DNA of 49,689 nucleotides. Origin: Deltaproteobacteria bacterium RIFCSPHIGHO2_02_FULL_40_28 (GTDB lineage: Bacteria > UBA10199 > 2-12-FULL-40-28). A program made the translations under genes and the position numbers. The number at the start of each line of letters is the position of its first letter. The stretch's first letter is position 1. The notes under the pieces were generated by a model. The model saw nothing but the letters and a program-made list of their open reading frames with translations, was not told the DNA's origin and did not search any database. Of the stretch, positions 2,667-30,120 are shown in pieces. The stretch covers positions 1 through 49,689 of the forward strand of contig MGRJ01000026.1 in the NCBI GenBank assembly GCA_001798135.1, given 5' to 3'.

Positions 2667-2680
2667 ATGATAAAAATCAT
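2667..2680. promoter_or_regulatory. FNR-type palindrome overlapping the copper ATPase start codon
   Basis: ATGATAAAAATCAT is a perfect TGAT-N4-ATCA palindrome and is identical, including the spacer, to the site at 24131-24144. It covers the ATG of the copper ATPase, where the coding triplets happen to spell M-I-K-I. No other in-frame start codon exists between the upstream stop and the YHS domain. A protein bound here would block transcription or translation initiation rather than activate from -41. Chance identity remains possible. Confidence 0.45.
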
Positions 2681-4823
2681 AGAAAAAGATTTTTCCCAAA
2701 CAGCCAAGGATCCCATTTGTGGTATGGTTGTTCAAAAAAACTCTGCATTAAAAACAGAGCAGGCAGGGAGAATTTATTATTTTTGCAGTCAAAACTGCCA
2801 AAAAACTTTTGAATCTCCAGAGCAAGAACTAAAATCCATGAAAAAAAGGGTGGCTCTTGTTCTTACAGGAGTTTTAGCCCTAGCTCTTTTGCGGGCCAGT
2901 GCCTTTTTATTTTTAGCTACAGGGGCCATGGTGATGAGCTGGGCTCCCATTCCACAACTTCCTTGGTTTACCTGGGGCATTTGGCTTTTTATTTTGGTAA
3001 CTCCCGTGCAATTTATTGGAGGTTGGGGTTTTTATCAGGGAGCATGGAATGCTCTTAAAAAAAAATCTGTCAACATGGATTTACTTATCGCCTTGGGAAC
3101 CAGTGTTGCCTACATTTATAGCGTGATTGTTATTTTTGTTCCTGATATTTTACCTGTTAAAGTTGAAGAACGGGATGTTTATTTTGAAGTATCTGCCGTT
3201 ATTATTGCCTTTGTTCTTTTGGGTAAGTACATGGAAGAACTGATCAAGAAAAAATCTTCAGCCGCTATCAGGCGTTTGATGGATTTAAAACCTGCCATGG
3301 CTCGTGTGATCAGAAATGGCATTGAAATGGAAATTTCTGCCGAACAAGTTATGGTTGGTGAAATTTTAATCATTAAGCCTGGAGAAAAAATTCCAACAGA
3401 TGGAATTGTTATCGAAGGATCATCCCTGGTGAATGAGTCGATGTTAACAGGTGAATCCATGCCTGTTGAAAAAAAGAAAGACGCCACAGTGATTGGAGCT
3501 ACAATCAATCAAAATGGTTTGCTTAAAATGAAAGCAACTCGTGTGGGATCAGAAACCACTTTGGCTCAAATTATTAAGCTTGTAGAACAGGCACAAACAA
3601 CCAGCGCTCCCATTCAACGTTTGGCAGATCAAGTTACTGGTTATTTTGTTCCCATTGTTGTCATCACAGCTTTTTTATCATTTGGGTTATGGTGGGTTTT
3701 TGGAAATTTTCCCCAAGGACTTCTCTCTTTTATTGCGGTTCTTATCATCGCTTGCCCTTGTGCTCTTGGGATTGCAACCCCAGCTGCATTGATGGTGGGT
3801 GTTGGTAAGGGTGCAGAAGTGGGAATTTTAATTCGTGGTGGAGATGTTTTAGAACGAGCTCAGAAATTAACTACTATTGTTTTTGATAAAACGGGCACAC
3901 TCACAGTAGGAAAACCAACTCTTACCGACCTTATTTCTTTTTCTTCTTTTACCGATACACACATTCTTGAATTAGCTGCTGTTTTGGAGTCTGGCTCTGA
4001 ACACCCCATAGCATTGGCTATTGTAAAAGAAGCTTTGAGTAGGGGCGTATTGCAATCTGCCCCTACTTTAGAAAAATTTGAAGCTGTTCCAGGGCATGGA
4101 ATTCGAGGTGATGTTGGAGGAAAAAAAGTCCTCATGGGCAATCGACGTTTGTTTCAGCAGGAAGGAATTTTATCAACACAAGCCGAAGAAGTGATGCAAA
4201 AACTTGAATCGATGGGTAAAACAGTTCTCTTAGTGGGAGTACATGGAGCTTTAGTAGGGATTATTGCAGTAGCCGACACTTTAAAACCAGAAGCCAAGGA
4301 AGCAATTGCCCTTCTTAAGAAAGAAAAAGTTGAAGTGATTCTTTTAAGCGGGGACAACAAACGGTGTGCCAAACATGTTGGCCATGAGCTTGGAATCGAA
4401 AAAATCATGGCCGAAGTTTTGCCAGGGGATAAGGCCAGCATCATTCAAAATTTGCAAAATGCAGGTCAGGTTGTAGCCATGGTAGGAGATGGTGTTAATG
4501 ATGCCCCAGCCTTGGCCACAGCAGATATTGGAATTGCTATTGGTTCTGGTTCTGATGTGGCTAAAGAGACGGGGGGAATTATTCTCATTAAGAGTGATGT
4601 AAGAGACGTGGTAACGAGTATTCTTTTATCTCGAGCAACCATGAAAAAAATCAGGCAAAATCTTTTCTGGGCTTTTATTTATAATTCTGTTGGGGTGCCC
4701 GTAGCCGCTGTAGGTTTTTTAAATCCCATGATTGCTGCAGCTGCCATGGCGTTGAGTTCACTTTCAGTGATTATCAATTCGGCTTTACTCAAACGTTTTA
4801 AGGTGAAAACAATCATGGTATGA
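2667..4823 (+). CDS. copA: Copper-translocating P1B-type ATPase with N-terminal YHS domain
   Basis: 718 residues. A YHS metal-binding domain at about 15-52 (DPICGM with Cys18, then Cys40 and Cys44) replaces the usual HMA domains. It is followed by paired membrane helices, actuator motif TGES (261-264), the CPC transport motif (363-365), DKTGT with phosphorylated Asp407, SEHP (444-447) and GDGVND (607-612). This is the Cu+ P1B-1 pattern. It either exports copper or loads it onto exported enzymes. In this window NirK needs copper, so a delivery role in the CtpA/FixI sense is plausible but inferred. The start ATG has a poor ribosome site and lies within an FNR-type palindrome. A kinase gene follows after 21 bases. 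Confidence 0.92.
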   Translation: MIKIIEKDFSQTAKDPICGMVVQKNSALKTEQAGRIYYFCSQNCQKTFESPEQELKSMKKRVALVLTGVLALALLRASAFLFLATGAMVMSWAPIPQLPWFTWGIWLFILVTPVQFIGGWGFYQGAWNALKKKSVNMDLLIALGTSVAYIYSVIVIFVPDILPVKVEERDVYFEVSAVIIAFVLLGKYMEELIKKKSSAAIRRLMDLKPAMARVIRNGIEMEISAEQVMVGEILIIKPGEKIPTDGIVIEGSSLVNESMLTGESMPVEKKKDATVIGATINQNGLLKMKATRVGSETTLAQIIKLVEQAQTTSAPIQRLADQVTGYFVPIVVITAFLSFGLWWVFGNFPQGLLSFIAVLIIACPCALGIATPAALMVGVGKGAEVGILIRGGDVLERAQKLTTIVFDKTGTLTVGKPTLTDLISFSSFTDTHILELAAVLESGSEHPIALAIVKEALSRGVLQSAPTLEKFEAVPGHGIRGDVGGKKVLMGNRRLFQQEGILSTQAEEVMQKLESMGKTVLLVGVHGALVGIIAVADTLKPEAKEAIALLKKEKVEVILLSGDNKRCAKHVGHELGIEKIMAEVLPGDKASIIQNLQNAGQVVAMVGDGVNDAPALATADIGIAIGSGSDVAKETGGIILIKSDVRDVVTSILLSRATMKKIRQNLFWAFIYNSVGVPVAAVGFLNPMIAAAAMALSSLSVIINSALLKRFKVKTIMV

Positions 4824-4844
4824 TAAAAGGAAAAACAAGATTTT

Positions 4845-6086
4845 ATGCAATCACAAGATGATTATGAAGCCTACCGGGCCCTTTTTCGATATTCAAGTCT
4901 CGGTATTATTATTTCTAATAGTGAGGGAGTTATTGAGCAAATTAATCCCTTTGCAAATGATTTGTTTGGATATGAAGATAACGAACTTATAGGCCAGAAA
5001 ATTGAAGTACTTCTTCCCCAAAGATTTAAAGGGGGGCATGTTCAACGTAGATCTGATTATAACGCAAATCCAAAAGCAAGAGCCATAGGTATTGGAATGG
5101 ATCTTTTGGCTTTAAAAAAGAATGGAACTGAATTTCCTGTTGAAATCAGTTTGGCTCATTATGAAGCCAATGGCAAAACACAGATTATGAGTTTTATTAC
5201 TGATATTACAGAGCGTAAAAAAACAATGGAAGAATTGAAAAAATTGAATGTTGAACTCGAAAAGAAAGTAAGTGAACGAACCATCGAGTTGTCCGAGGCC
5301 ATTATGGAATTACAACATACTAACGAGCATTTAAACTATGAAATGGAACAAAGAAAAAAAGCAGAAGAAGAACTGTGGGCTGCTTTTGAGAAAGAAAAAG
5401 AATTAAGTGAACTTAAATCCCGGTTTGTTTCTATGGCCTCACATGAATTTCGTACTCCACTTTCTGGAATTTTAAGCTCAGTTTCTTTGATTGCGAAGTA
5501 TCAGAGTGCGTCTGATGAAGACAAACGAAATCGCCATATTCAAACCATTAAAACATCGGTTCAACATCTCACCAATATTTTAAACGATTTTCTTTCGCTT
5601 GATAAATTAGAAGAAGGGAAAATCAAATGCTATCCTAGTGTTTTTTCAATTGTTGATTTTACCAAGGAATTAGTGGATGAAATGCATGCTCTTTTCAACC
5701 AAGATAATCGTATTGTCTATGAACATCAAGGAGATGTGGTTTTGATAAGCTTAGATAAAGATATGCTTCGAAATGTATTGATTAACCTTTTGTCTAATGC
5801 CATGAAATATTCAAAGGCGACCACGAAGATTAATTTTATCACAGAGGTAAGAAATGAAAAATTAACAATAACCATTCAGGATTATGGTATTGGAATCCCA
5901 GAAGCAGAGCAAAAACATCTTTTTGAAAGATTTTTTCGCGCTCAAAATGTCTTAAATGTTCCGGGAACAGGACTGGGACTTAATATTGTTAAAAGATATC
6001 TGGATTTAATGGAAGGCTCTATGGATTTTAAAAGCCGAGAAAATGAGGGAACCACCTTTACCATTGTCTTTCCTCAACGGAGTTAA
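4845..6086 (+). CDS. Soluble PAS-domain sensor histidine kinase
   Basis: 413 residues with no membrane segment, so it senses a cytoplasmic signal. A PAS domain (about 8-124) ends in DITERKK. A coiled coil (about 125-190) leads to a HisKA domain with phospho-acceptor His200 in MASHEFRTP. The HATPase domain has the N-box NLLSNAMKYS, the G1 box DYGIGIP, an F-box LFERFFRAQ and the G2 box GTGLGLNIV. No cofactor ligand can be assigned in the PAS domain. It is followed four bases later by the receiver-CRP regulator, which is its probable partner, and preceded by the copper ATPase in the same direction. Confidence 0.93.
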   Translation: MQSQDDYEAYRALFRYSSLGIIISNSEGVIEQINPFANDLFGYEDNELIGQKIEVLLPQRFKGGHVQRRSDYNANPKARAIGIGMDLLALKKNGTEFPVEISLAHYEANGKTQIMSFITDITERKKTMEELKKLNVELEKKVSERTIELSEAIMELQHTNEHLNYEMEQRKKAEEELWAAFEKEKELSELKSRFVSMASHEFRTPLSGILSSVSLIAKYQSASDEDKRNRHIQTIKTSVQHLTNILNDFLSLDKLEEGKIKCYPSVFSIVDFTKELVDEMHALFNQDNRIVYEHQGDVVLISLDKDMLRNVLINLLSNAMKYSKATTKINFITEVRNEKLTITIQDYGIGIPEAEQKHLFERFFRAQNVLNVPGTGLGLNIVKRYLDLMEGSMDFKSRENEGTTFTIVFPQRS

Positions 6087-6090
6087 AAAT

Positions 6091-7146
6091 ATGAAAAAGA
6101 TTTTACTGATTGAAGATGATACTGTAATGCGGGAAAACACAGCAGAAATTTTGGAACTTGCTCAGTATCAGGTAACCACTGCCATCAATGGGAAAAAAGG
6201 TGTTCAAATTGCAAAAGAACTCCATCCAGATCTTATTATTTGTGACATCATGATGCCAGAACTTGATGGCTATGGGGTTTTGCATGTTTTATCTAAAGAT
6301 CCTGCCTTAGCTTCTATTCCTTTTATTTTTCTAACTGCGAAAGTAGAAAAAAGCGAGCTTAGAAAAGGGATGGATTTAGGTGCTGATGATTATCTCACCA
6401 AACCTTTTGAAGAAACCGAACTTTTAAATGCCATTGAAGCCAGGTTTAAAAAAAATACCCTGCTTAAAAAAGAATTTGCTCGCAATATAAAAGGATTAAA
6501 CCAGTTTTTAAATGAAGCAAGTGGATTAAAAGTATTGGATAGTCTTACTCATGATAGGCCAATTGTTCATTATAAGAAAAAAGAAATCATTTTTCATGAA
6601 GGAGATGTTCCCCAACATCTCTTTTTTTTAAATGCAGGAAAGGTTAAAACCTATAAATCTCATGATGATGATGGAAAAGAATACGTAACCCATGTTTACA
6701 AACAGGGCGAGTTTTTTGGATATATTCCCTTGCTTGAGCAAGCTAACTACTCTCATTCTGCCATTGTTTTAGAAGAATGTGAAATTTGTCACATCCCCAA
6801 AGGAGATTTTTTATCCCTCGTTACTAAAAATCGGGATGTAGCCGTTAAATTTATTAAAATGCTTTCTAATAATGTCACTGAAAGAGAGAAACAACTTTTA
6901 AGTTTAGCCTATGATACAGTTCACAAGAGAGTGGCAGAAGCTCTTTTACTTTTAATGCAGCGTTATCAGGAACCAGGAAGAAAGCGCGTGTGTATACCCA
7001 TCAGTCGTGAAAGTTTAGCAGGAATGGTAGGCACTGCCACCGAGACGGTGATTCGCAGTTTAAGCGAATTTAAACTAGATAAGTTCATTGAGATTGAAGG
7101 TCGTGATATTGTTATTTTGAATGCCGAAGGACTCAAAGAAGTTTAA
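6091..7146 (+). CDS. Response regulator: receiver domain fused to CRP/FNR-type DNA-binding module
   Basis: 352 residues from ATG 6091, preceded by ACGGAGT; an upstream in-frame ATG at 6043 lies inside the kinase gene. The receiver (1-125) has Asp52 in ICDIMMPELDG, Thr82 and Lys104. A cyclic-nucleotide-binding-fold domain follows (about 160-275) and then a CRP winged helix with recognition core ETVIR. Receiver plus CRP is an uncommon output for a two-component regulator. Phosphorylation by the adjacent kinase would replace or add to small-ligand control. The recognition helix matches that of the stand-alone CRP protein at 23403-24101, so both may read the same TGAT-N4-ATCA sites. Confidence 0.92.
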   Translation: MKKILLIEDDTVMRENTAEILELAQYQVTTAINGKKGVQIAKELHPDLIICDIMMPELDGYGVLHVLSKDPALASIPFIFLTAKVEKSELRKGMDLGADDYLTKPFEETELLNAIEARFKKNTLLKKEFARNIKGLNQFLNEASGLKVLDSLTHDRPIVHYKKKEIIFHEGDVPQHLFFLNAGKVKTYKSHDDDGKEYVTHVYKQGEFFGYIPLLEQANYSHSAIVLEECEICHIPKGDFLSLVTKNRDVAVKFIKMLSNNVTEREKQLLSLAYDTVHKRVAEALLLLMQRYQEPGRKRVCIPISRESLAGMVGTATETVIRSLSEFKLDKFIEIEGRDIVILNAEGLKEV

Positions 7147-7156
7147 TTAACCAAAA

Positions 7157-7170
7157 CTGATTTAAATCAG
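7157..7170. promoter_or_regulatory. FNR-type operator upstream of the universal stress protein
   Basis: CTGAT-TTAA-ATCAG is a perfect palindrome with FNR-type half-sites. Its centre lies 64 bases before the ATG at 7228, so a class II promoter (site near -41) would give a leader of about 23 bases. FNR-family control of Usp genes is known in denitrifiers. It is followed by GTTTTTT, so a weak terminator for the regulator gene is the alternative reading. Confidence 0.6.
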
Positions 7171-7227
7171 GTTTTTTCCTTACTTTTGTCATTTTTTGTT
7201 TTATCTCATTCTTTTATCCTGAAAATT

Positions 7228-7656
7228 ATGCAAATTATATTGATTCCTACAGATTTTTCTGTAGTGTCGCAGAATGCCATCGAATGGGCCTTAACTTTTT
7301 TCAAAAATCAAGAAGGGGGTTACCGAGTTTTATTGCTTAATACCTATCTTGTTCCTTCCTTGCCGGCTCATCAGCTTATTACTATGCATGATGAACTCAG
7401 AAAAAAATCAATAGAAGGGCTTGAGCATCAACTACAGCTGGTTACAGAAGCAAATAGACAAAAAAAAGCCTCATTTGAAATTCTTTCTCATATGGGGGCA
7501 TTAGAAAATGTAATGGCACACATTGTGCAAACCCAACATGTTGATTGTATTGTGATGGGAATGAGCCACACTCAAAACAAGAAGGAAATATTAGAAAAAA
7601 ACTGTGTTTGTGTTTTAAATCGCCTGCAATGCCCCATCCTCATAGTGCCCGCCTAG
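7228..7656 (+). CDS. Universal stress protein, UspA family
   Basis: 142 residues from ATG 7228, where the family's first strand begins (MQIILIPTDFS); an upstream TTG start at 7186 would add 14 residues overlapping the likely promoter. The ending VLNRLQCPILIVPA is the typical Usp C-terminal strand. The ATP-binding G-x2-G-x9-G-S/T loop is degraded here to GMSHTQNKKEILEKN, so nucleotide binding may be lost as in UspA proper. It is likely cytoplasmic and dimeric. The FNR-type palindrome upstream suggests induction by low oxygen or nitrogen oxides. Confidence 0.85.
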   Translation: MQIILIPTDFSVVSQNAIEWALTFFKNQEGGYRVLLLNTYLVPSLPAHQLITMHDELRKKSIEGLEHQLQLVTEANRQKKASFEILSHMGALENVMAHIVQTQHVDCIVMGMSHTQNKKEILEKNCVCVLNRLQCPILIVPA

Positions 7657-7708
7657 TGTTTGTTACCCATTTCTTTACAGAAAGCTTGTTTTCACTTATT
7701 GTTTTAAA

Positions 7709-9328: not shown

Positions 9329-9386
9329 TAGTTGGTAATTGGGGTTTAAGATTTTTATCTATCAGCGGATTATAAATGCCATCATG

Positions 9387-9440
9387 ATTTTCCGTGATTG
9401 AGCGGAAAATGAAATTTCGGTAGTCAAATCCGAAATTTCA
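9387..9440. repeat. Two adjacent perfect hairpins before the DUF4143 ATPase
   Basis: ATTTTCCG (9387-9394) pairs with CGGAAAAT (9403-9410). TGAAATTTCGG (9410-9420) pairs with CCGAAATTTCA (9430-9440). The loops are eight and nine bases. There is no long T-run after either, so they are poor terminators. Their position 18 bases before the preferred ATG suggests an operator or translational control element. Confidence 0.65.
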
Positions 9441-9457
9441 TGCTATCTTTAATCCTT

Positions 9458-10609
9458 ATGAAAAGGAGTAATTTTTTTAAGTTCATTCAGAAGGGGTTTT
9501 CGGTTCACCCCATGGTTGCTCTTTTGGGGCCTCGTCAGTGTGGTAAAACCACAATGGCACGACATTATATTGCAGAAAATAAAAAACAATATAAAGACAT
9601 CCATTTTTTTGATTTAGAAGACCCATTTAGTTTTGACCAACTTACCAAAAACCCAAAGCTTATTCTAGAATCACTTTCAGGATTAGTTGTGTTAGATGAA
9701 ATTCAGAGGGTTCCAGAACTTTTTCCTGTTTTACGAGTGCTGGTCGATCGACCGAAAAGTAGGACTAAATTTTTGATTTTGGGAAGTGCTTCACGGGATT
9801 TAATTGAAAAAAGTTCCGAGACACTTGCTGGCCGGATTACATATGTGGAAGTTACCCCTTTTAGTATGAGTGAAACGGGTATCAAAAATTGGGAAACTTT
9901 GTGGATACGAGGTGGTTTCCCGCGTTCGTATTTGGCAAAGAACCAAGAAACAAGTTGTCATTGGCGGGAAGAATATATACGTACTTTTTTAGAGAGAGAT
10001 ATACCTCAATTGGGCATACAAGTGCCTGCCAATACCATTCGCCGTTTTTGGATGATGCTAGCCCACTATCACGGTCAAATTGCCAATTTGTCTGAAATAG
10101 GAAAGTCACTTGATTTGTCGGATAAAACGGTTCGTCGCTATCTCGATATTCTTAATGGAACATTTATGGTTCGTATTCTTTCCCCTTGGTTTGAAAATAT
10201 TGGGAAAAGACAGGTAAAACGTCCAAAAATTTTTTTTCGGGACTCGGGCCTTTTTCATCAACTCATGGGGTTCAAAAACAAAAAAGACCTCTTTTATCAC
10301 CCAAAACTTGGCGCTTCATGGGAAGGATTTGTATTGGAAGAAGTAATTCGTTTTAAGAAAGCCAGGCCCGAAGAATGTTTTTTTTGGAATGTACACGAAC
10401 AAATGGAACTAGATCTTGTAGTTATTAAAAATGGAAAGCGATTTGGCTACGAGGTAAAATATACACAAACACCACAAATAAAACCTTCGCATCAAAAAAT
10501 TATCGAGCGTTTAAAGCTAGAAGAACTTGTTTTTATTTGCCCAATCGAAAAACAAATTGATATAAGTAAAAAAATAAAAATAAGAAGTCTTTTAAATTTT
10601 TTCGATTAG
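9458..10609 (+). CDS. AAA-family ATPase with DUF4143 domain
   Basis: 383 residues from ATG 9458. An N-terminal P-loop GPRQCGKTT and Walker B segment LVVLDEIQRVPELF are followed by the AAA_14 arrangement and a DUF4143 C-terminal domain. Near the end, MELDLVV and GYEVKYT give an acidic residue plus E-V-K, resembling the PD-(D/E)XK nuclease-like core often seen in this family. Function is not established; such genes are abundant and mobile in environmental bacteria and are sometimes proposed to act like toxin-antitoxin or defence factors. It is a lone gene between murJ and convergent clpB. A second member lies at 46664. Confidence 0.88.
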   Translation: MKRSNFFKFIQKGFSVHPMVALLGPRQCGKTTMARHYIAENKKQYKDIHFFDLEDPFSFDQLTKNPKLILESLSGLVVLDEIQRVPELFPVLRVLVDRPKSRTKFLILGSASRDLIEKSSETLAGRITYVEVTPFSMSETGIKNWETLWIRGGFPRSYLAKNQETSCHWREEYIRTFLERDIPQLGIQVPANTIRRFWMMLAHYHGQIANLSEIGKSLDLSDKTVRRYLDILNGTFMVRILSPWFENIGKRQVKRPKIFFRDSGLFHQLMGFKNKKDLFYHPKLGASWEGFVLEEVIRFKKARPEECFFWNVHEQMELDLVVIKNGKRFGYEVKYTQTPQIKPSHQKIIERLKLEELVFICPIEKQIDISKKIKIRSLLNFFD

Positions 10610-10635
10610 CACTTCTGGCTGCTTCTTTTTTTATT

Positions 10636-15009: not shown

Positions 15010-15025
15010 AGTTCACCTCTAGCCT

Positions 15026-19979: not shown

Positions 19980-20557
19980 AAAGTTCCTTTCATGAAGGGA
20001 AAATTTTGTTTTTTAAGAATTTCTACAATTGAATTTGCAGCATTTTGTAATCCTTCTTCAGAATGAAGAATAACACCTCTTTCATCCAGCAAGGTAATGG
20101 CAGAGGTATGATTAAAACCACCATCTGGAAGTGGTCTGTAAGTATAGTTAAGTAATGCAGCTAAATCTCGTACATGATTTTTTGATGGAAAAACTAATTT
20201 CCATCGGGAAAGATCTAAATGATGTTGTTTTGCCAGCTTGTATAAAACAACAGAAGTGTCATGTGCAGGATCAAAGCTAATCAGCAAAATTCTAATTTTG
20301 TCGCGGATTTTTGAATCTAGTTTGGAATCCATTTTTTTCAGGACATCAATAAAAAGAGGGCAGCTATAGTCACAAGAAGCGTAAAACATGCTGACAACAA
20401 CGGGATGTCCTTGAAAAACATTAAAGTCCATTTGTTTGCCATCTTGATCAGTTAAAATGGTTTGGTAGTCATAAAGAGAATTTCCTTGGACAGTTTGTGC
20501 CCAAGATAATGAGAAAGGGGTTATTAAAATAATTAAAATAAGAAAAATTATTTTCAT
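19976..20557 (-). CDS. SCO1/SenC family copper chaperone
   Basis: 193 residues with an N-terminal signal sequence and a thioredoxin-like fold. The copper site is visible as CDYSC (Cys-x3-Cys) with the distant His in FNHTSAI. SCO proteins deliver copper to, or reduce thiols in, exported copper enzymes. Here the likely client is the copper nitrite reductase in the same operon rather than cytochrome oxidase, which is inference from position. Its start follows the nirV-like stop directly and its end overlaps the porin gene. Confidence 0.9.
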   Translation of the reverse strand: MKIIFLILIILITPFSLSWAQTVQGNSLYDYQTILTDQDGKQMDFNVFQGHPVVVSMFYASCDYSCPLFIDVLKKMDSKLDSKIRDKIRILLISFDPAHDTSVVLYKLAKQHHLDLSRWKLVFPSKNHVRDLAALLNYTYRPLPDGGFNHTSAITLLDERGVILHSEEGLQNAANSIVEILKKQNFPFMKGTL

Positions 20558-21349
20558 TTATGATTTTTTTTCATCTTGAGCACATCGAAAACCCAAGCTG
20601 GATGTTGTGTAATGGGCTTTCAATGAAGTTCTAAAGGCTATACGCATAAAGCTGGCATAATCATCTTTTTCTGTAGCAACCAGTGCCCCCGCTCCACAAA
20701 ACCTGTTTTTATCGGGGCTTGTGGCATTTTCGCGATTATCACTGGAAACAAGGCTGCTATTGAAATCGAGAACCCATTCCCATACAAGGCCATGTAAATA
20801 ATAAACACCCCAGTAATTGGGTGGGCTTTGCCCCACCTTGGGAAAAACAGAAGGTGTTGGCTTTGTATACCAATCGAGGATGCGATTTCTCCACTCTAAA
20901 TCTTTACGGGCATCTGGTTTTTTATCGCTAGCACCAGCAACATATTCCCATTCATTTTCTGTGGGCAGTCTTTTACCTTCTGATTCGCAATAAGCTTTGG
21001 CTGCAAACCAGCTTACTTGGGTTACTGGTTGTTCCCCATTTATTTTATTGCCCAGACTTATTGGTGTGACCCAGTGAGACAGATATTGTTTATCAGCAAA
21101 AATTCTTTTGATGTGATCACGTCTCCATTGGGGATTTTTTTTTACAAACTGGAGAAACTGGGCTTCCGTAACAGGAAATTTATTCATCCAAAAAGTATGA
21201 ACAGGAATTTCTCGTTCTTTGGGGGAAGGAGGGTAGAAGGGTTTTAAAATCCCTCCTACCACATAAGCCATCCCTTTTTCAGCCGATTGGGCAGCCAGGA
21301 TCAACCCAAACTGCCCAATACAAATAGCGGCTAGAAGGAGAAGACGCAT
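20558..21349 (-). CDS. nirV: Formylglycine-generating-enzyme-fold protein, NirV-like
   Basis: 263 residues with a signal peptide (ends near AAQSAE). The FGE-sulfatase/SUMF1 fold is shown by FWMNKFPVTEAQFLQF, QPVTQVSWFAAKAYCESEGK, RLPTENEWEYVAGAS and the closing SLGFRCAQ. Genes of this fold directly after nirK are called nirV in denitrifiers; their role is unclear. The two active-site cysteines of true FGE are not obvious, so it is probably not a formylglycine synthase. It overlaps nirK by one base (TAATG), so translation is coupled. Confidence 0.83.
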   Translation of the reverse strand: MRLLLLAAICIGQFGLILAAQSAEKGMAYVVGGILKPFYPPSPKEREIPVHTFWMNKFPVTEAQFLQFVKKNPQWRRDHIKRIFADKQYLSHWVTPISLGNKINGEQPVTQVSWFAAKAYCESEGKRLPTENEWEYVAGASDKKPDARKDLEWRNRILDWYTKPTPSVFPKVGQSPPNYWGVYYLHGLVWEWVLDFNSSLVSSDNRENATSPDKNRFCGAGALVATEKDDYASFMRIAFRTSLKAHYTTSSLGFRCAQDEKKS

Positions 21350-22773
21350 TATTTTGCAGCTCCCGGGGGACGGAGTGTTGCTTCACGTACCACTTTTACT
21401 TCTTCTGTATCTACTACTCCCCCTTTGTTTTCCCATGAATTCAAAACAAAGGTAAGAATATGTGCCACTTCATCATCATTTAACTGACTCATGGGAGGCA
21501 TGGTTGAATTATAATCCCGACCGTTTACTTTAATGGGGCCACTTAAACCGTTAAGAATGGCAGCAATGAGTTTTTGTTTATCCCAACCATTAACAATATC
21601 GGAGTTGGCCAATGGAGGAAAAACTCCTGGAATGCCAATGCCATTATTTTGATGGCAAGTAGAGCAAGTTCCCATAAACAGATTTTTTCCAGCTTCAATT
21701 TGCATTTCTTTGGTGAGAGTTCCTTTTTTTGAAGCTGCTGCAGCTTGTGCAATAGCTTGGGTTTGTTCTGCTTTGTCTGCTAAATAAACGGAATCAACTT
21801 CTTTTCCAGAATACATTGCCTTGTTTTCATCACCCTCAACTTTCATCATGCCTAGGGCTCCTTTGTTGAAGGCGCGAAAAATTGAGTGATCAACAAGAAT
21901 ATAGGTTCCAGGAATTTCAGCTTTATATTCTACAATGGCTGAGCCCCCTGCGGGGACAAGAGTTGTTTGTACATTTTCTTGATAACGGGTGCCGCCTTCG
22001 GTGAAAACTTTATCAAAAACTTCACCAATGACATGGAAAGAACTTATAAGATTTGGACCCCCATTTCCTATAAAGAGACGCACCGTTTCTCCAACCTTGG
22101 CTTTAATGGCTTTATCTCCAACCAAAGCTCCTTCAGAACCATTAAAAAGAACATAAGTGGCATTTTCTTCGATGGCTTTTTGCATATCGAAAGGTTGAAG
22201 TCCTTTTTCGCGGTACTTGCCCACGGTGTAAAAATCGCCCTGGACAATGTAGTATTCTTTATCAACGGGTGGAAGACCTTCAGGGGGTTCTACAAGAATT
22301 AGTCCATACATTCCATTAGCTACATGCATGCCTACAGGTGCTGTTGCGCAATGGTAAATATATAATCCCTTGTTTAAGGCTTTAAATGTAAATTGAGACT
22401 CGTGCCCTGGAGCTGTGAAAGAACTTGTAGCCCCACCACCTGGTCCTGTTACTGCATGGAGATCAATATTGTGTGGCATTTTATTATCGGGATGGTTTTG
22501 GAGATGAAATTCAACAGTATCACCTTGCCTGACACGAATAAATTTTCCAGGAACATGACCACCAAAGGTCCAAAAAGTATAATCCACACCATCGGCAATG
22601 GGCCTGGTTACTTCTTTTACTTCAAGATGTGCGATGATTTTTGCTGGATAATTTCTTTTGATAGGTGGAGGTACATTGGGGGCATCTGTTAGAATGGCCT
22701 CAATAGGATCTCCGGAGTGACAATTCATCATGGTGAGTGATAATCCAAGCATGATCATGAGAAACTGATTCAT
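21349..22773 (-). CDS. nirK: Copper nitrite reductase fused to a C-terminal cytochrome c domain
   Basis: 474 residues. Two cupredoxin domains (about 40-320) carry type 1 copper ligands His101, Cys142, His150 and Met155, type 2 ligands His106, His141 and His296, and catalytic Asp104 and His247. A linker leads to a cytochrome c domain with CSTCH (370-374) and Met425 in STMPPM as the sixth haem ligand. The enzyme reduces nitrite to nitric oxide in the periplasm, and the tethered haem brings in electrons. An N-terminal signal is present, ending near a Cys in a poor lipobox. It is the second gene of the operon, 12 bases after the hemerythrin gene. Confidence 0.96.
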
Positions 22774-22785
22774 AAAGGATCCTTT

Positions 22786-23316
22786 TTAACAACTGGGTTG
22801 TGGCAGCACATAAATTTTTTCTAATTGATCAATGATATTACAAAGTTTTTCAATTTGTTTTTTATCATTTTCAGTTTCGCTTGTAATCAATTTTTTGCAC
22901 AGTTCTTCTTGTTGTTCACCAGTAAAAGATTGATCTGCATCTGGGAGAAAAAAATTATCCTCTTTTAAAATATGTTCATTGAGTAAACCAATAAGATTTC
23001 TGGCTTGTATCATGAATTTTGGAGAAGGGATTGCATCAGTTGATTCGGCCAAAGCTTGGCCCATGGCTTCTACATAACCTGTTTGTAAAAGATGTTCCTC
23101 CATAATTTCTTTGGTATCAATGTAGTGAAGTAAAATATTTGCTTCCTTTCCGTGATGATAGTGGTTTGCATACACAGTCATAAAATTTGTGATTTGTTCT
23201 AAATGGATCAGAGGTACTTTCTGTTTTTTTTCTAGGGCAGTACAGAGAGTATCTAAAATTTTAAGTCCTCTTAAAATAACCTGATGTTCTTTTTTTAACA
23301 AGTCGGTGCCTTTCAT
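22786..23316 (-). CDS. Hemerythrin-domain protein, first gene of the nirK operon
   Basis: 176 residues from ATG 23316, preceded by GAGGGA; a GTG at 23331 would add five residues. The four-helix hemerythrin pattern has metal-ligand candidates in KKEHQ, NHYHHGKE, EEHLLQ and NEHILKED. Such proteins bind a di-iron site and can carry oxygen or react with nitric oxide. No signal peptide is present, so it is cytoplasmic. Heading the nitrite-reduction operon, it may protect against or sense NO, which is inference. A TGAT-N4-GTCA site lies about 50 bases upstream. Confidence 0.88.
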   Translation of the reverse strand: MKGTDLLKKEHQVILRGLKILDTLCTALEKKQKVPLIHLEQITNFMTVYANHYHHGKEANILLHYIDTKEIMEEHLLQTGYVEAMGQALAESTDAIPSPKFMIQARNLIGLLNEHILKEDNFFLPDADQSFTGEQQEELCKKLITSETENDKKQIEKLCNIIDQLEKIYVLPQPSC

Positions 23317-23365
23317 AGTTTTTTCCCTCACTTGTACTTTGAATCAGATGAGAAAAAGAGAAGTA

Positions 23366-23377
23366 TGATTTATGTCA
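23366..23377. promoter_or_regulatory. Candidate CRP/FNR-family operator of the nirK operon
   Basis: TGAT-TTAT-GTCA combines an FNR-type half-site with a DNR/NNR-type half-site. Its centre is about 55 bases before the hemerythrin ATG on the minus strand, so placement at -41 gives a leader of about 14 bases. It is less symmetric than the other four sites. Confidence 0.45.
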
Positions 23378-23402
23378 TAAAAGCTTGTTTTTTTTGAATA
23401 TT

Positions 23403-24101
23403 TTATGGGTTAAGGGTTAACCCTACAACTTGACGAAGAGTAGACATGTTAGGAATTTCGATGTATTTATCCTGAGTATCAATGAGTTTTTGTTTTGACC
23501 AAGTACTTAAAATGCGGATCACTGTTTCGACAGTTGATCCTACCCTATCAGCAATATCCTGACGAGTGAGGGGAATAGTAATGCGGCTTGTGGAACCATA
23601 GGTGTTTTGAATACGCTCCAAAAGATCTAACAAAAAAATGGCAATACGTTTTTCGGTAGAATCAAAAGACATAACACGATCACTATGGGCTTGTCTGATG
23701 CGTTCTCCAAGTTGTGCAATTAAAATTTGTCCTACTTTGGGATGAAGAAGAAAAAAATCCTGAAATGTTTTTGCCTCAATTTTCATGACTGTACTTTGTT
23801 CTAAGGCAATGGCATTTACTGGATAAAATCCTCCTTGCATGACTACTGCTGCTCCAAACATTTCTCCACGCATGAGGAGATGAACAATCCTTTCTTTTCC
23901 ATCAGGATGAGAGCGAACCAGTTTTGCGCTTCCTGAGAGAATAATATACACATGGGTTGCCTGGTACCCCGCAGAAAAGGCATGTTCACCACGTTTGAGA
24001 TGACAGATGGTACATTTTTCAGATAAGACGACCATTTCGCTTTGGTTGAGTTGCGAGAAAATAGAAATATTTTTCATGTAAGAGGAAATTTTTTTATCCA
24101 T
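23403..24101 (-). CDS. CRP/FNR-family transcriptional regulator
   Basis: 232 residues: a cyclic-nucleotide-binding-fold sensor domain (about 15-135), a dimerisation helix and a CRP winged helix with TRQDIADRVGSTVETVIRIL. Only two cysteines (30 and 33) occur near the N-terminus, too few for an FNR-type iron-sulfur cluster, so it is more like DNR/NNR/Crp types that sense NO through haem or another ligand. It lies between the nirK operon and the nitrate-respiration genes and is divergent from the latter, so it is their best candidate regulator. The FNR-type palindrome at 24131 is 30-43 bases before its own ATG, which suits autoregulation. Confidence 0.92.
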   Translation of the reverse strand: MDKKISSYMKNISIFSQLNQSEMVVLSEKCTICHLKRGEHAFSAGYQATHVYIILSGSAKLVRSHPDGKERIVHLLMRGEMFGAAVVMQGGFYPVNAIALEQSTVMKIEAKTFQDFFLLHPKVGQILIAQLGERIRQAHSDRVMSFDSTEKRIAIFLLDLLERIQNTYGSTSRITIPLTRQDIADRVGSTVETVIRILSTWSKQKLIDTQDKYIEIPNMSTLRQVVGLTLNP

Positions 24102-24130
24102 AAGTGCCTTAGCTCTCCTTAATTATTTTT

Positions 24131-24144
24131 ATGATAAAAATCAT
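24131..24144. promoter_or_regulatory. FNR-type operator in the regulator/porin divergent promoter
   Basis: ATGAT-AAAA-ATCAT, a perfect palindrome identical to 2667-2680. For the porin, placing it at -41 predicts a start near 24179, with CATAAT (24164-24169) as the -10 box and AAAGGAGG before the ATG at 24219. The same site could repress or activate the regulator gene on the other strand. Confidence 0.75.
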
Positions 24145-24218
24145 ATTGAAAACCAATTGAAGTCATAATTACTTATTTTGCTTATTGGTACATTAAGCAC
24201 ATCAAAGGAGGCAACGTT

Positions 24219-25412
24219 ATGCATCATATCTTAACTCAAAAGGTCATACCAGTTGTTTTGTTTTTTGCGGTTGTTTCAATGCTTCTGTCGTTTTCTGTAA
24301 CAGCAAGCGCAAAATCATCAACAGTCTTGACTCAACAAGAAGTCGAAAAAATTGTCGATAATAAAATAGCAGCACAACAAAAAGAGGACAGCTGGATTAA
24401 AAAATACAATGTTAAACCTATACTCAAAACATTTGTTCAGTACAGCCTTGATTTAGACACCAGTGCCCATCAGAGACGAACAACCACACAGTGGGATAAC
24501 GCTTTTGATCTAACACGGTTCTATTTTGGTTTTGATGCTGATCTCACAAAACATATCATGGTGGAAGTGAAGGCGGATATTAACGCCAAGGCAGCTGCGG
24601 GCGCCCAAGACTCCGATTTTGATATTTTTCTTAAAACAGGTTTTCTTGAATTTGGGAATTTCGAATCTGCACCCGGACTCAAATTTGTTGTGGGTCAAGC
24701 GGATCTTCCATGGATTGGCTATGTGGAAGGGGTATGGGGTTATCGAATGCAAGGGCAGATTTTAACCGACTATGAGCGCTATCTTGCTTCCACAGACGTG
24801 GGGGTTGGCGTCAAATACGAATTCCCAGAAAAATGGGGCGATCTGCACTTTTCGTTTGTTAACGGAACAGGATTTAATACCGGTCCAGAAAACGATAATT
24901 ATAAGGATTTTCACCTACGTGCAACCGTTAAACCCCTTGCTAACAAGAACTTCTTTGTTTCCGCCCTTGGGGTTGTTGGTTTTACAGGAAGTAGTTCCAA
25001 CGATCATGAACGATTTGCCGGATTGATTGGATATAAAGACAAAGAACACGGAACCATCGCTGGTGAGGTTTTATATGCTATTGATCCCGCAGCTAACCTT
25101 GCCGCTCGTCATCCAAGCTTAGCTGCTTTAACCGGTAACGCGAAAGGGCTTGGTTTTTCTGGGTTTGGCGAACTCAAATTCTTTTGGTGGGAAGATCCCT
25201 GGGATCGTTTTTCTATCATCGGACGGGTTGATTTTCTTGATCCCGACGGAAGCACAGACAATAATTACCATTATCACGGTATTAGTGGCCTGGCTTACAC
25301 ACTCAACGACCATTTTAAATTTCTCATCGACCATGACTGGAGCAGTTATCAGGCGGGTGCCGGTCAACGGGGAAATAATACCTTATTCTTTCAAATGGAA
25401 GCAAAGTTATGA
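24219..25412 (+). CDS. Outer-membrane porin, phosphate-selective porin (OprO/P)-like
   Basis: 397 residues with a long signal peptide (cleavage near TASAKS), a short coiled segment (LTQQEVEKIVDNKIAAQQ) and a beta-barrel rich in alternating aromatic strands, ending in FFQMEAKL. The strand containing GQADLPWIGYVEG and the DLTRFYFGFDADL segment resemble OprO/P-type barrels. The substrate is unknown; nitrate, or the oxyanion used by the following molybdoenzyme, would fit the context. Its last codons overlap the next gene by four bases (ATGA), so it is the first gene of the B-C-A operon. Confidence 0.72.
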   Translation: MHHILTQKVIPVVLFFAVVSMLLSFSVTASAKSSTVLTQQEVEKIVDNKIAAQQKEDSWIKKYNVKPILKTFVQYSLDLDTSAHQRRTTTQWDNAFDLTRFYFGFDADLTKHIMVEVKADINAKAAAGAQDSDFDIFLKTGFLEFGNFESAPGLKFVVGQADLPWIGYVEGVWGYRMQGQILTDYERYLASTDVGVGVKYEFPEKWGDLHFSFVNGTGFNTGPENDNYKDFHLRATVKPLANKNFFVSALGVVGFTGSSSNDHERFAGLIGYKDKEHGTIAGEVLYAIDPAANLAARHPSLAALTGNAKGLGFSGFGELKFFWWEDPWDRFSIIGRVDFLDPDGSTDNNYHYHGISGLAYTLNDHFKFLIDHDWSSYQAGAGQRGNNTLFFQMEAKL

Positions 25413-26278
25413 CGCAACAGAAGAAAAAGGATCATCAAGAAACAGAAATATCGGATAGCGTTGCTATTAAAACGCGCCGAGATTTTTTGAAAAATCTCAA
25501 AGATGTGGGCGCGTGTGCTCTTGTTACCGCCATTGCCAGTGGGGGTATCATGAGTTCCTTTTTATCCATGACAGATGCCGTTGCTTCTGCCCCAGGTGGA
25601 AGCCGTGCTCTCACAAAGAGAAAATACCGATACGGAATGGTTATCGATACGCGCCGATGTGTTGGTTGTAAGGCATGTATGGTTGCATGCAAAGTAGAAA
25701 ACAAAACGCCACCCGGAGTTTCTTACACCATTGTATCTAGTCATGCTCTAGATCGTCCTGATGAGAAACCTGTTTTTACAACCAAACCCTGTTTTCATTG
25801 CGAACACCCTCCGTGTGTTGATGTTTGTCCAGTGAGTGCCACCTTTAAGCGTGATCAAGATGGTATTGTGGTGGTTGACTACGACCGCTGCATTGGCTGT
25901 CGCTATTGTATTACCGCATGTCCATACGGAGCCCGGTATTTTGACTTTGGCGAAAACTATACCATGACTGAGTCGGGTCCTTTCAAAAAAATTCCTTCAC
26001 CAGAATACAATCAATTTCGCAAGCGGGAGGAGGGATCTTCACCAATTGGCAATGTAAGAAAATGTACTTTTTGTCTCCATTTTCAAGATGCCGAAGGTCG
26101 CTATGACAAGGAGAGCGGTCGTTGGCCGTCCTGCGCCAAAACTTGCACGGGGCACGCAATTTTCTTTGGTGACTTCAACGATCCAGAAAACGAGGTTGCT
26201 CGTCTTATCAGAGAAAGACAGCCGATTCGTCTGAAAGAAGAGTTGGGAACACAGCCCAATGTTTATTACTTATTGTAG
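25409..26278 (+). CDS. Tat-exported 4x[4Fe-4S] electron-transfer subunit (PsrB/TtrB/DmsB type)
   Basis: 289 residues. The twin-arginine motif TRRDFLKNL and a hydrophobic stretch indicate Tat export. Four cysteine groups follow: CVGCKACMVACK, CFHCEHPPCVDVCP, CIGCRYCITACP and CTFC with CAKTC. This is the four-cluster ferredoxin subunit of complex iron-sulfur molybdoenzymes, which passes electrons from the membrane quinol subunit to the catalytic subunit. The gene order B-C-A is like ttrBCA and srdBCA. The ten-base gap to the NrfD-type gene supports one operon. Confidence 0.92.
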   Translation: MTQQKKKDHQETEISDSVAIKTRRDFLKNLKDVGACALVTAIASGGIMSSFLSMTDAVASAPGGSRALTKRKYRYGMVIDTRRCVGCKACMVACKVENKTPPGVSYTIVSSHALDRPDEKPVFTTKPCFHCEHPPCVDVCPVSATFKRDQDGIVVVDYDRCIGCRYCITACPYGARYFDFGENYTMTESGPFKKIPSPEYNQFRKREEGSSPIGNVRKCTFCLHFQDAEGRYDKESGRWPSCAKTCTGHAIFFGDFNDPENEVARLIRERQPIRLKEELGTQPNVYYLL

Positions 26279-26287
26279 GAGTTTAAA

Positions 26288-27553
26288 ATGAAGCAAGTTA
26301 CTTGTTGTGAAAATCAAACAGCGTGTGGATTAAAAAAGATTTTTTGGTATCTTGGAGGATTTCTTTTTCTGATCGGTTTATATGGTTGGATTGACCGTTT
26401 GTGGTATGGCCATCTGCACGCAAATTATGGAAATGTTGTAACTTGGGGACTTTGGGTGTCTCTTTATATTTATTTTATCGGTTTATCTGCGGGCTCTTTT
26501 TTAATTTCATCGCTGGTCTACGTATTTAATTTTAAGCAGTTTGAGCGAATTGGCTGGGTGGCCCTTTTAACCGCTATTATCACTCTGCTGATGGCTTTGT
26601 TTTCCATTTGGGTTGATCTTGGCCACATGGAGCGTGCGTGGAAGGTGATGATCTTTGCCAATTTTAAGTCCCCTATGGCCTGGATGATCTGGCTCTATTC
26701 AGCCTACTTTCTTTTGTTACTGGTGGAAACATGGTTTCTTTTACGAGGAGATTTGGTGCGTCAAGCCAGCCTCTCTGGGTTACCTGGAAGGGTGTTTCAT
26801 TTTCTCTCTTTTGGATCGCCAGCTCCCTCCGAAATAACACAGAAACGTGACCTCAAAATTGTGCGTATTTTAGCTACAATTGGTGTTCCTGTGGCTGTGA
26901 TGTTTCATGGAGGGGTTGGCGCTCTCTTTGGCGTGGTTGCAGCCAGGCCCCACTGGCATAGCGGACTTTTTCCCATTTTGTTTCTTCTTTCCGCCCTTGT
27001 GAGTGGTGGTGCTCTCCTTATAGTGGTTACCTCCATTTTTCAAAAAGGGTTTGAAGCAAATCGTGATACCATATTTGCTCTTGGCAAACTTGTTCTTGGA
27101 TTGCTGCTTCTTGATCTTTTATTTCAATTCTCGGAAATACTTGTTGCCTTTTATGGCGGTATTCCAAGTCATGTGGAGGGACTTAAGCTTGCTCTTTTTG
27201 GTCCCTATGCGTGGGTTTTTTGGGTTTGGCAAATCGGTATTGGTACTGTTATTCCTGTTATTTTGCTTACCACTAAAACACGGCATCAGGTTGGTTGGGT
27301 TGCATTGGCGGGCCTTCTTTTGGTGATTGGTTTTATTGGCATGCGGCTTAACATTGTGATTCCAGGTTTAGCAGTAGAAGAAATCAAGGGATTAACAACA
27401 GCCTATGTATCAACACGTGTGGCAACCAATTATTTTCCTAGTGTGAGCGAATGGCTGCTATCGGCTGGTATTGTAGGTTTTGGGTTGCTCCTTTTTGGTT
27501 TGGGTGAACTTTTTCTCTCAAAAGAAAATAAGCTGACGGAAGATGAGGTGTAG
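26288..27553 (+). CDS. NrfD/PsrC-type quinol-interacting membrane subunit
   Basis: 421 residues with about nine to ten membrane helices. The first helix region GLYGWIDRLWYG and YIYFIGLSAGSFLISS fit the NrfD/PsrC family, which has no haem and oxidises quinol at the membrane. It anchors the iron-sulfur and molybdenum subunits on the periplasmic face. It has a three-base gap to the catalytic subunit gene. A cysteine-rich N-terminus (TCCENQTACG) precedes the first helix and is not a standard feature. Confidence 0.9.
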   Translation: MKQVTCCENQTACGLKKIFWYLGGFLFLIGLYGWIDRLWYGHLHANYGNVVTWGLWVSLYIYFIGLSAGSFLISSLVYVFNFKQFERIGWVALLTAIITLLMALFSIWVDLGHMERAWKVMIFANFKSPMAWMIWLYSAYFLLLLVETWFLLRGDLVRQASLSGLPGRVFHFLSFGSPAPSEITQKRDLKIVRILATIGVPVAVMFHGGVGALFGVVAARPHWHSGLFPILFLLSALVSGGALLIVVTSIFQKGFEANRDTIFALGKLVLGLLLLDLLFQFSEILVAFYGGIPSHVEGLKLALFGPYAWVFWVWQIGIGTVIPVILLTTKTRHQVGWVALAGLLLVIGFIGMRLNIVIPGLAVEEIKGLTTAYVSTRVATNYFPSVSEWLLSAGIVGFGLLLFGLGELFLSKENKLTEDEV

Positions 27554-27556
27554 ATT

Positions 27557-30070
27557 ATGTACGTGTTTGATAAGAAAATGGGCCGAAGAAAATTTATCAA
27601 AGTAATGGGCGCCTCTGTGGCTGGAGCCGTTGCAAGTAGCGCTTTAACGGGATGTGTTAGTTTAGGATCCAAGGAACATTCAATTCCGACCAATGAGTTG
27701 GGGATAAAAGAATGGGGACGTGAGGCAGGCGAATGGATTCCTTCCTGTTGTAATATGTGTGGCGGACAATCGGGGATTTTGTGCCATGTGGTAGATGGTG
27801 TGGTGGCCAAAATTGAGCCTAATCACTGGAACCCAAACAACTATTCCAATATTTCTTCTGATTTTTTTGATGGCTATACGGAAGAGTATGGTTGTAAGGA
27901 CGGGGGAGCCCTCTGTCCCAAGGGAAATGCCGGTATCGCCCAGCTTTATGATTCTGATCGAATTAAAACACCACTTAAACGAACCAATCCCGATCGTTCA
28001 CCAGGTGCTGATCCAAAGTGGCAGGAGATTAGCTGGGATACGGCACTGAATGAAATTGCCGATAAATTAAAAACACTTTACGATGCGGGTGAGGCCCACA
28101 AACTTTTATGGATAAGTGAAGATCATAGTTTTACCCATATTCAGGGTGATTTTTGTGAACTCTTTGGCACTCCTAATTATTCCATGCACTCAAATTTGTG
28201 TGATGTTGCCAGGAAGGCCTCATTTAAGACGGTATTGGGGCATGATCGGCCATTGCTGGATGCTCTTCATTCAAAATATATCCTCCTTTTTGGATGGAAC
28301 CCCACCTCGGCTATCAAGTGGGTTCATCTGCCACGTATTATCACACAGGGGATCGAGCGGGGAGCTAAGCTTGTGGTGGTTGATCCCTATCTCTCAGATA
28401 CGGCTGCCAAGGCACAAGAATGGATTTCGTTGCGTCCTGGAACTGATGGGGCGTTGGCATTAGCAATGGGTCATGTGATTGTCAAAGAAAAATTATATGA
28501 TGAGGAGTTTGTTAACACTTGGGTTTCTGGTTTTGAGGAATACAGTCAGTACGTTGCTGATAAAACCCCTCAATGGGCCGAACAAATTACAACTGTGCCA
28601 GCAAAGACGATTGAGCGTATCGCGCGAGAACTGGCAACCACCAAGCCAGCTTTGGTGGATGTTTGGAGCGGCCCTGGCCAGCATACCAACGGGGTGCAGG
28701 GAGGAAGAGCAATTGTCGCCTTGAATGCCCTTATTGGCACTATTGACCGCCCCGGTGGCATGGTAATTCCCAACAAAAGTGGCAATAAACATGGGCATGT
28801 AGATGCCAATGAACAAGCAGCTCTCACAGGGGAGAATCCACGATTTGATGAGTTAAAAAAATATCCTTTGGGGCATAAATCGGGCGTTTATACACGAACG
28901 TTTAGCAATTTGGAGCAGGGGGCTGGTCCATATTCTCCAAAAATGGCCGTCATTGTGTTTCAAAATCCAGCCATGTCGGTTCCTGGAAATTTGGTTCCAA
29001 AGGCACTGGCCAAACTTGAGACAGTTGTTGTTATTGATACGATGCTGAGTGAAACAGCCATGCTGGCCGACTATGTTTTGCCAGGTACTACTTATCTTGA
29101 ACGATACGATCTCAATACTCACTGGGTAACCTGGCCGGTTTTAGCTCTGAGACAACCGGTGATTAAACCTCTGTTTGGTCAACCAACAGAATATGAAGTG
29201 GTGGCAGCATTGGGAAGGCGTTTGAAGTTAACAACAAAAGACGGTGTTGAATTTTTTTATCGCGGGCCCTTGTCAGGAGAATCAATTGAGCACCTCACAC
29301 AATGGTATGAGGATTATCTTTCCAATGAACTGGTACATGGTGCTCCCAAAATCACATTGAAGGAACTGAAAACCCTCCCAGGAGCCGTATGGGTAGATCG
29401 CAAAGGGACGGAGTATGAAAAATATGCTAAAGAGGTTTCTGCACCAAAGTTAGTTGGTGCTTTTTATGATGGTTCTTCGATGCAAGATGGCACAGGGGTT
29501 TATGATAAACCAAAAGATCAAAAAGGGAAACGGCTTGGAACAGTGTTTGGGGGCAAGGTATTGAAGAGTTTTGATACCCCTAGCGGAAAGGTAGAACTTT
29601 TTGCACCATCACTGGCAAAAAAAAATGACGCTGATGGGCAACCGGTTAACCCGCTCCCTGTTTATGAACCGCGTCAGTGGCAGCCAAATAAGGAATTTCC
29701 CCTCTATTTAATCAACTGGAAAGAGGCTAGCCACACTCATACACGGAGCCAAAATAATCCGCTACTTCTAGAACTCAAATCGGATAATCGGCTGGTTATT
29801 CATCCCGATACTGCACAATCACTTGGTATTGGGCCGGAAGATGACGTCTGGGTAGAATCATCACAGGGCAAGGTTAAAGCTCGTGTACAAATTACACGGC
29901 GGATTCATCCAGAAGTGGTTGGAGCTCAGCATGGATTTGGCCACACCGCTTTAGGCAAAAATGCCAAGGGTCGTGGATCAGCTTTTGGCATATTAAACCG
30001 TTGTCTTTCTGATCCTCTCTCGGGTCAGGCGGTTCATAAGGAAATTTGCGTGCGGGTAGTTCCAGTATAG
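27557..30070 (+). CDS. Exported molybdopterin oxidoreductase of the complex iron-sulfur (Psr/Phs/Ttr/Srd-like) group
   Basis: 837 residues. A Tat motif GRRKFIKVMG is followed by ALTGC (Cys33), so it may be a Tat-exported lipoprotein. The N-terminal cluster region reads CCNMCGGQSGILC and, later, GALCPKG; the position of the third ligand Cys is Ser72. Cys215 in HSNLCDVA is the probable molybdenum ligand, as in Psr/Ttr-type enzymes. The C-terminal molybdopterin-binding domain starts near NPLLLELKSDNR. Its substrate is probably an oxyanion or sulfur compound (polysulfide, thiosulfate, tetrathionate, selenate) and cannot be set from sequence alone. It is shorter than TtrA (about 1000). It pairs with the B and C subunits upstream. 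Confidence 0.85.
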   Translation: MYVFDKKMGRRKFIKVMGASVAGAVASSALTGCVSLGSKEHSIPTNELGIKEWGREAGEWIPSCCNMCGGQSGILCHVVDGVVAKIEPNHWNPNNYSNISSDFFDGYTEEYGCKDGGALCPKGNAGIAQLYDSDRIKTPLKRTNPDRSPGADPKWQEISWDTALNEIADKLKTLYDAGEAHKLLWISEDHSFTHIQGDFCELFGTPNYSMHSNLCDVARKASFKTVLGHDRPLLDALHSKYILLFGWNPTSAIKWVHLPRIITQGIERGAKLVVVDPYLSDTAAKAQEWISLRPGTDGALALAMGHVIVKEKLYDEEFVNTWVSGFEEYSQYVADKTPQWAEQITTVPAKTIERIARELATTKPALVDVWSGPGQHTNGVQGGRAIVALNALIGTIDRPGGMVIPNKSGNKHGHVDANEQAALTGENPRFDELKKYPLGHKSGVYTRTFSNLEQGAGPYSPKMAVIVFQNPAMSVPGNLVPKALAKLETVVVIDTMLSETAMLADYVLPGTTYLERYDLNTHWVTWPVLALRQPVIKPLFGQPTEYEVVAALGRRLKLTTKDGVEFFYRGPLSGESIEHLTQWYEDYLSNELVHGAPKITLKELKTLPGAVWVDRKGTEYEKYAKEVSAPKLVGAFYDGSSMQDGTGVYDKPKDQKGKRLGTVFGGKVLKSFDTPSGKVELFAPSLAKKNDADGQPVNPLPVYEPRQWQPNKEFPLYLINWKEASHTHTRSQNNPLLLELKSDNRLVIHPDTAQSLGIGPEDDVWVESSQGKVKARVQITRRIHPEVVGAQHGFGHTALGKNAKGRGSAFGILNRCLSDPLSGQAVHKEICVRVVPV

Positions 30071-30106
30071 TAAATCAATCACAGATTTCACAACAAATTC
30101 AATCTT

Positions 30107-30120
30107 ATGATTTGTATCAT
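30107..30120. promoter_or_regulatory. FNR-type operator of the nar operon
   Basis: ATGAT-TTGT-ATCAT has perfect half-sites. Placing it at -41 predicts a start near 30155, with CTAAAT (30143-30148) near -10 and GAGG before the ATG at 30171. It is the only recognisable promoter element in the 100 bases between the molybdoenzyme gene and the cytochrome gene. Confidence 0.75.

Follow-up and report, generated by a model that had tools for sequence, protein, structure and literature searches.

Candidate (A/C)TGAT-N4-ATCA(T/G) operators at respiratory genes of an uncultured bacterial class, and their association with isoleucine at the place of FNR Ser 212

The outer T of the FNR site is contacted by Ser 212 of the protein, a residue which we take to be number 184 in CRP numbering. 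As regards the described systems closest to the locus considered here, the FNR consensus has this leading T (PMC8465061), the DNR consensus is CTTGAT-N4-ATCAAG, and DNR and FNR-like sites are given with TTGAT (PMC1274295); in the same work, Rodionov et al. (2005) found that residues 180 and 181 of the Crp/FNR proteins (CRP numbering) co-vary with two bases of the site (PMC1274295).

In the stretch of DNA analysed here (the window, 49,689 nucleotides, part of contig C26 of a genome of 2.16 Mb in 31 contigs), perfect TGAT-N4-ATCA occurs in seven copies. One 14-mer, ATGATAAAAATCAT, is present twice in identical form, at 2667–2680 and 24131–24144, and a scan of the window sequence places CTGATTTAAATCAG at 7157–7170 and ATGATTTGTATCAT at 30107–30120; a variant site at 23366–23377, taken as the 14-mer ATGATTTATGTCAT (23365–23378), has one mismatch. 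All of these had been listed in a preliminary description of the window and are where it put them. Its remark that the perfect sites are without the leading T holds for the sites that it listed and fails for the copies at 17811 and 18509, both T-led, which together with a copy at 43025 lie within genes or at gene starts. The palindromes are real, and most of them are probably regulatory.

A search with the HTH_Crp_2 model returned two proteins in the genome, both of them encoded in the window: a stand-alone Crp/FNR-family regulator (23403–24101, minus strand; helix VETVIR) and a fusion of a response regulator with a Crp-type protein, RR-CRP (6043–7146, plus strand; helix TETVIR). Both score above the Pfam cut-offs for a cNMP-binding-like domain and a Crp-type HTH, as members of the Crp/FNR superfamily do, and in both the recognition helix reads E-T-V-I-R, which confirms the isoleucine noted earlier in the two candidates. 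The fusion has a Response_reg domain (DIMMP at 68), and its probable partner is a PAS histidine kinase (4845–6086, plus strand) with a HisKA domain (SHEFRTP at 199), the pair possessing the receiver Asp and the kinase H-box of a two-component system. When an FNR chain taken from the Protein Data Bank is aligned with the stand-alone regulator, TVETISR stands against TVETVIR without a gap, in such a way that Val 208 and Glu 209 are common to both and Ser is set against Ile at 212.

The likeness to FNR and its TTGAT-N4-ATCAA operator extends to the frame of the Crp-type helix, the spacer of 4 bases, the TGAT core, and the genes of anaerobic respiration that adjoin the sites. Unlike those of FNR, the intergenic sites of the window are led by A or C and not by T (ATGAT or CTGAT-N4-ATCAT or ATCAG), Ile takes the place of Ser, and the stand-alone regulator has cysteines at 30 and 33 only, not the four of the FNR 4Fe-4S set, and scores 84.3 bits against the NCBIfam FNR model, whose cut-off is 228. 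Given the two cysteines and a score so far under the cut-off, this protein is not FNR proper. Its orthologue in the relative G004 has Cys 30 only, and the FNR-like cysteine pattern is present in many other proteins of the class with this isoleucine (Ile-type). With DNR it shares the character of a Crp-type regulator that adjoins nirK and is without the FNR cysteine set, but the candidate site is without the leading T of DNR, and the DNR chain matches it less well (E 1.4e-11) than the FNR chains do (about 1e-18). A short open reading frame of about 110–130 amino acids, which matches the sensor domain and has no HTH, often adjoins the FNR-type gene (L030, L033, L035, L043, L044 and others).

The copy at 24131–24144, a candidate operator, is found between the divergent gene of the stand-alone regulator and a series of porin-like, FeS, NrfD-type and molybdopterin oxidoreductase genes (24219–30070, plus strand), its centre being 81 bases from the porin start at 24219 and 36 from the regulator start at 24101. 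The candidate with one mismatch, 23365–23378, is upstream of the gene for a hemerythrin-type protein (22786–23331, minus strand), the first of the nirK set, with about 40–55 bases from its centre to the start (23331 or 23316), and the set includes the gene for a copper nitrite reductase–cytochrome c fusion (nirK; 21349–22773, minus strand). The candidate at 30107–30120 lies about 40–60 bases (centre to a start between 30153 and 30174) before a cytochrome c gene (30153–31028, plus strand), itself 5′ of narGHJI-type nitrate reductase genes (30961–37782, plus strand; G and H assigned by family search, J and I by eye). Finally, the candidate at 7157–7170 is 3′ of the RR-CRP gene and 5′ of that for a universal stress protein (7186–7656, plus strand), with about 22–65 bases between its centre and the start (7186 or 7228). 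Allowing for the latitude in the choice of starts, the spacing of some 40–80 bases that had been proposed fits these distances.

The second copy of ATGATAAAAATCAT, at 2667–2680, is a doubtful site that overlaps the first codons of a copper-type ATPase gene. The copper part of the regulon that had been proposed rests on this copy, and since it overlaps the ATPase start codon the link to copper is unproven; a copper regulon is for this reason rejected, no other copper gene with a site having been among those examined. The copy could serve in repression of the ATPase gene, or could result by coincidence from the ATG at which that gene starts.

Several other features of the region may be recorded here. 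Between 19976 and 22773, the nirK-cytochrome c gene is followed by a gene of FGE-sulfatase type (formylglycine-enzyme-like) and a SCO gene, and the order NirK-FGE-SCO is found again in many relatives. AAA ATPase genes lie at 9440–10609 (match to AAA_14 and DUF4143) and at 46664–48001 (alike by eye). On the same contig, beyond the window, a gas-vesicle cluster (L268; G000:C26:47001-65248) has matches to Gas_vesicle PF00741 and GvpL_GvpF PF06386, and one of its GvpL/F-type proteins has a DnaJ domain match.

At the quantitative level, the loose 12-mer with at most one mismatch, 46 in the window against a mean of 28.5 by chance, is a weak signal on its own. The 14-mer (A/C)TGAT-N4-ATCA(T/G), a refinement set after the sites had been seen, so that the class-wide tests given below are the more independent ones, occurs 3 times in the 1,570 noncoding bases of the window against 0.014 expected, and this number of intergenic copies was reached in none of 2000 shuffles. 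Over the whole genome, TGAT-N4-ATCA has 124 copies: 106 are intragenic, 7 at gene starts, 10 intergenic and upstream of a gene, and 1 elsewhere. These placements depend on gene calls from a simple codon-usage script and not on a standard gene finder, and a few calls are wrong, as at L040, where an antisense frame was picked over the RR-CRP gene. The window holds three of the 10 intergenic copies that precede genes, namely 7157, 24131 and 30107 (binomial P 0.0013, post hoc). Of the 27 copies whose two outer bases are each A or C, 5 precede a gene, against 5 of the remaining 97 (Fisher P 0.039). As for the two symmetrical forms, ATGAT-N4-ATCAT has 15 copies in this genome (8 intragenic, 4 before genes, 3 at starts), and TTGAT-N4-ATCAA 20, of which 19 are intragenic. 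The genome scan thus went against the loose motif, mostly intragenic as it is, and the signal is carried by the refined intergenic 14-mer. When raw counts of ATGAT-N4-ATCAT and TTGAT-N4-ATCAA were compared over 60 genomes, the two forms were not separated; since intragenic copies swamp such counts, the comparison was restricted to intergenic copies.

Outside the window, the copies of ATGAT-N4-ATCAT that are not intragenic lie on contig C23, at 106195 and 106232, between a multihaem cytochrome/FeS set and a set of cytochrome c, porin-like and multihaem genes, and at 119634, upstream of the gene for a protein with 17 haem motifs; another copy, on contig C20 at 43574, sits where an unrelated gene begins. 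The regulon had been described as local, a description that does not survive the recurrence at a respiratory cluster on C23: given the cytochrome and FeS genes beside these copies, the set is respiratory, but not local. This second respiratory cluster (L266, L267), which the three C23 copies flank, encodes proteins with 17, 9 and 7 CxxCH motifs as well as porin-like proteins.

The places of the sites are conserved in relatives. G004, which has the closest orthologue of the stand-alone regulator (69%), carries ATGATGTGAATCAT between this orthologue and hemerythrin-nirK, in the same place as ATGATTTATGTCAT in the window. Two sites are upstream of hemerythrin-nirK in G003, where another precedes a pair formed by cytochrome c and a COX1-family protein (norCB-like), and in G012 there are sites upstream of cytochrome c, moaA and a NarG-like gene. 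The intergenic placement of the motif before respiration genes, as proposed for the window, stands and is the same in these three relatives. Their 29 copies of ATGAT-N4-ATCAT comprise 18 that are intergenic or near the end of an open reading frame, some of them before genes with no clear respiratory role, and 11 well inside genes. What bears on a possible DNR-like control of nir and nor genes is the placement of the sites before the nirK sets and the norCB-like pair.

The gap between the RR-CRP and stress-protein genes contains a site or near-site at seven of seven loci (the window, L249, L026, L040, L045, L222 and L242), and at L212 and L224, where no stress-protein gene is next to RR-CRP, there is no site directly 3′ of the RR-CRP gene. 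It is here that the palindromes might be taken for transcription terminators or chance hairpins, as the 7157 copy lies 11 bases past the stop codon of RR-CRP, with a run of T after it. Such an origin is very improbable: the interval 6900–7400 has no terminator-like match, the folding energy is −3.9 kcal/mol (z −0.69), the 24131 copy is between divergent starts, and the relatives keep the letters TGA...TCA beyond what mere pairing would ask. At L040 and L045, two sites or near-sites 3′ of the RR-CRP gene are spaced by 22 bases, or two turns of the helix, a spacing that would suit two dimers bound next to each other.

The residue at the place of FNR 212 was compared with the leading base of the intergenic perfect-core sites, in a search for Crp-type loci that covered 46 genomes of the class. 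From 73 loci, 13 were excluded (the genome's own, 10 of other lineages, and 2 without a suitable regulator gene), as were 5 overlapping duplicates, which leaves 55: 38 with Ile, 7 with Ser, 6 with Val, 2 with Met and 2 unassigned. L046, a contig of G007 from the same order as the window, shares sequence with L216 and is counted inside the class. Intergenic perfect-core sites are present at 28 of the 38 Ile-type loci (the other 10 have none), at 3 of the 7 with Ser, at 1 of the 6 with Val, and at none of the rest. Over the 86 half-sites of Ile type the leading base is A in 58, C in 26, T in 1 and G in 1, that is, A or C in 84, and over the 18 of Ser type, four loci of other lineages included, it is T in 12, C in 4 and A in 2. 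The Fisher P, which ignores relatedness, is 1.3e-10 over half-sites and 1.1e-4 within the class; counted by locus, T occurs at 1 of 28 with Ile against 6 of 7 with Ser (P 2.9e-5, relatedness again ignored). Of 14 Ile-type loci whose lineage is another or unassigned, none has a perfect-core intergenic site, for which reason the claim is confined to the class.

In the 19,201 noncoding bases of the 38 Ile-type loci, where all palindromes of 5-mers with spacers of 2–10 were counted, ATGAT with a spacer of 4 comes first (17; the next has 5), and (A/C)TGAT-N4-ATCA(T/G) occurs 35 times where 300 shuffles lead one to expect 0.13. Chance, in the sense of a loose motif chosen by eye in an AT-rich window, would agree with the many intragenic copies of the 12-mer and with a pattern refined once seen; against this class-wide excess and the conserved places, it is hardly credible. 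It could also be argued that the sites are FNR/DNR boxes of the usual kind, their outer T gone by happenstance and the specificity unchanged, as both the core and the spacer match the FNR box and the targets are typical of FNR and DNR. However, random loss would have left far more T than the single Ile-type half-site, and TTGAT-N4-ATCAA is absent from the same 19,201 bases. The cleanest contrast comes from the window's own order, in which two Ser-type PETLSR genes, at L217 and L230, are directly 5′ of TTGATTTGGATCAA and TTGATTTGAATCAA, both of them full TTGAT-N4-ATCAA; a loss by happenstance is unlikely.

There is one exception, the Ser-type regulator of L222 (TETLSR), which has CTGATATAGATCAG 3′ of its gene. 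It bears on another possibility, that the sites are real and the base preference is set by residue 208, or by the whole helix, and not by Ile. In the two Ser-type genes of the same order that go with T sites, residue 208 is Pro, so that 212 is not isolated from 208 within this set of loci, and TETLSR, with Thr 208 and Ser 212, goes with a C site; moreover, one known determinant is residue 180 (CRP numbering; PMC1274295). Yet FNR, identical to the window regulator at Val 208 and Glu 209 and different from it at 212, reads T (PMC8465061), and this comparison, with Val 208 in both proteins, speaks for 212. The possibility is a serious one, if somewhat doubtful. Within the class, the fit proposed earlier between Ile for Ser and the lost T is supported, apart from L222, but residue 212 and those around it are not told apart by these data.

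What is observed is the position of the sites, their excess over chance, their conservation and the co-variation of helix and site; binding, the pairing of protein with site, the signal, and a positive rather than a negative effect on the genes are inferred. We consider it probable that 23365, 24131, 30107 and 7157 are (A/C)TGAT operators of the genome's two Crp/FNR proteins, to be bound by the stand-alone regulator and the kinase-linked fusion. Most likely, the nirK genes, those of the molybdoenzyme, the cytochrome c and nar genes, and the cluster on C23 would in this way respond to anaerobic conditions or nitrogen oxides, chiefly by being activated. Compared with the classic FNR TTGAT, the half-site is without the leading T, a loss that in the class goes with Ile for the FNR Ser. 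The stand-alone regulator, whose gene adjoins nirK here and in G004, would most likely read 23365, 24131 and 30107 and turn on the respiration of nitrite, that of the molybdoenzyme, and that of nitrate, and 24131 is close enough to the regulator's own start for self-control to be conceivable. The kinase/fusion pair would read one site or more, the 7157 copy 3′ of its own gene among them; the helices of both regulators being nearly the same, shared sites are possible. A TATAAT-like −10 element at class-II FNR spacing gave no peak among 71 site-gene pairs, with at least 4 matches in 10 of the 71 at −12 and in 12 of the 71 at two other offsets.

More widely, the change from Ser to Ile at FNR 212 could have moved the whole uncultured class to (A/C)TGAT-N4-ATCA(T/G), read in parallel by three branches of one family, one FNR-like (with Fe-S-type cysteines), one DNR-like and one of kinase-driven response regulators, a tentative proposal to which we give a little less than even credence. 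The residue at issue would be 184, on the numbering assumed for FNR 212. HcpR and the other co-evolving Crp/FNR sites are alike in that residues of the recognition helix co-vary with bases of the site, and unlike in that these residues are 180 and 181 (PMC1274295); an outer-base change with the residue discussed here extends that principle. The (A/C)TGAT form, ATGATNNNNATCAT included, was not found in print among the open-licence literature, from which its absence does not follow.

In summary, a scan for the classic TTGAT box would overlook the (A/C)TGAT sites. The operator may be used to predict which genes make up the anaerobic-respiration regulon in an uncultured class, and the association offers a one-residue hypothesis, open to test in E. 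coli, for the reading of the outer base by FNR-type proteins.
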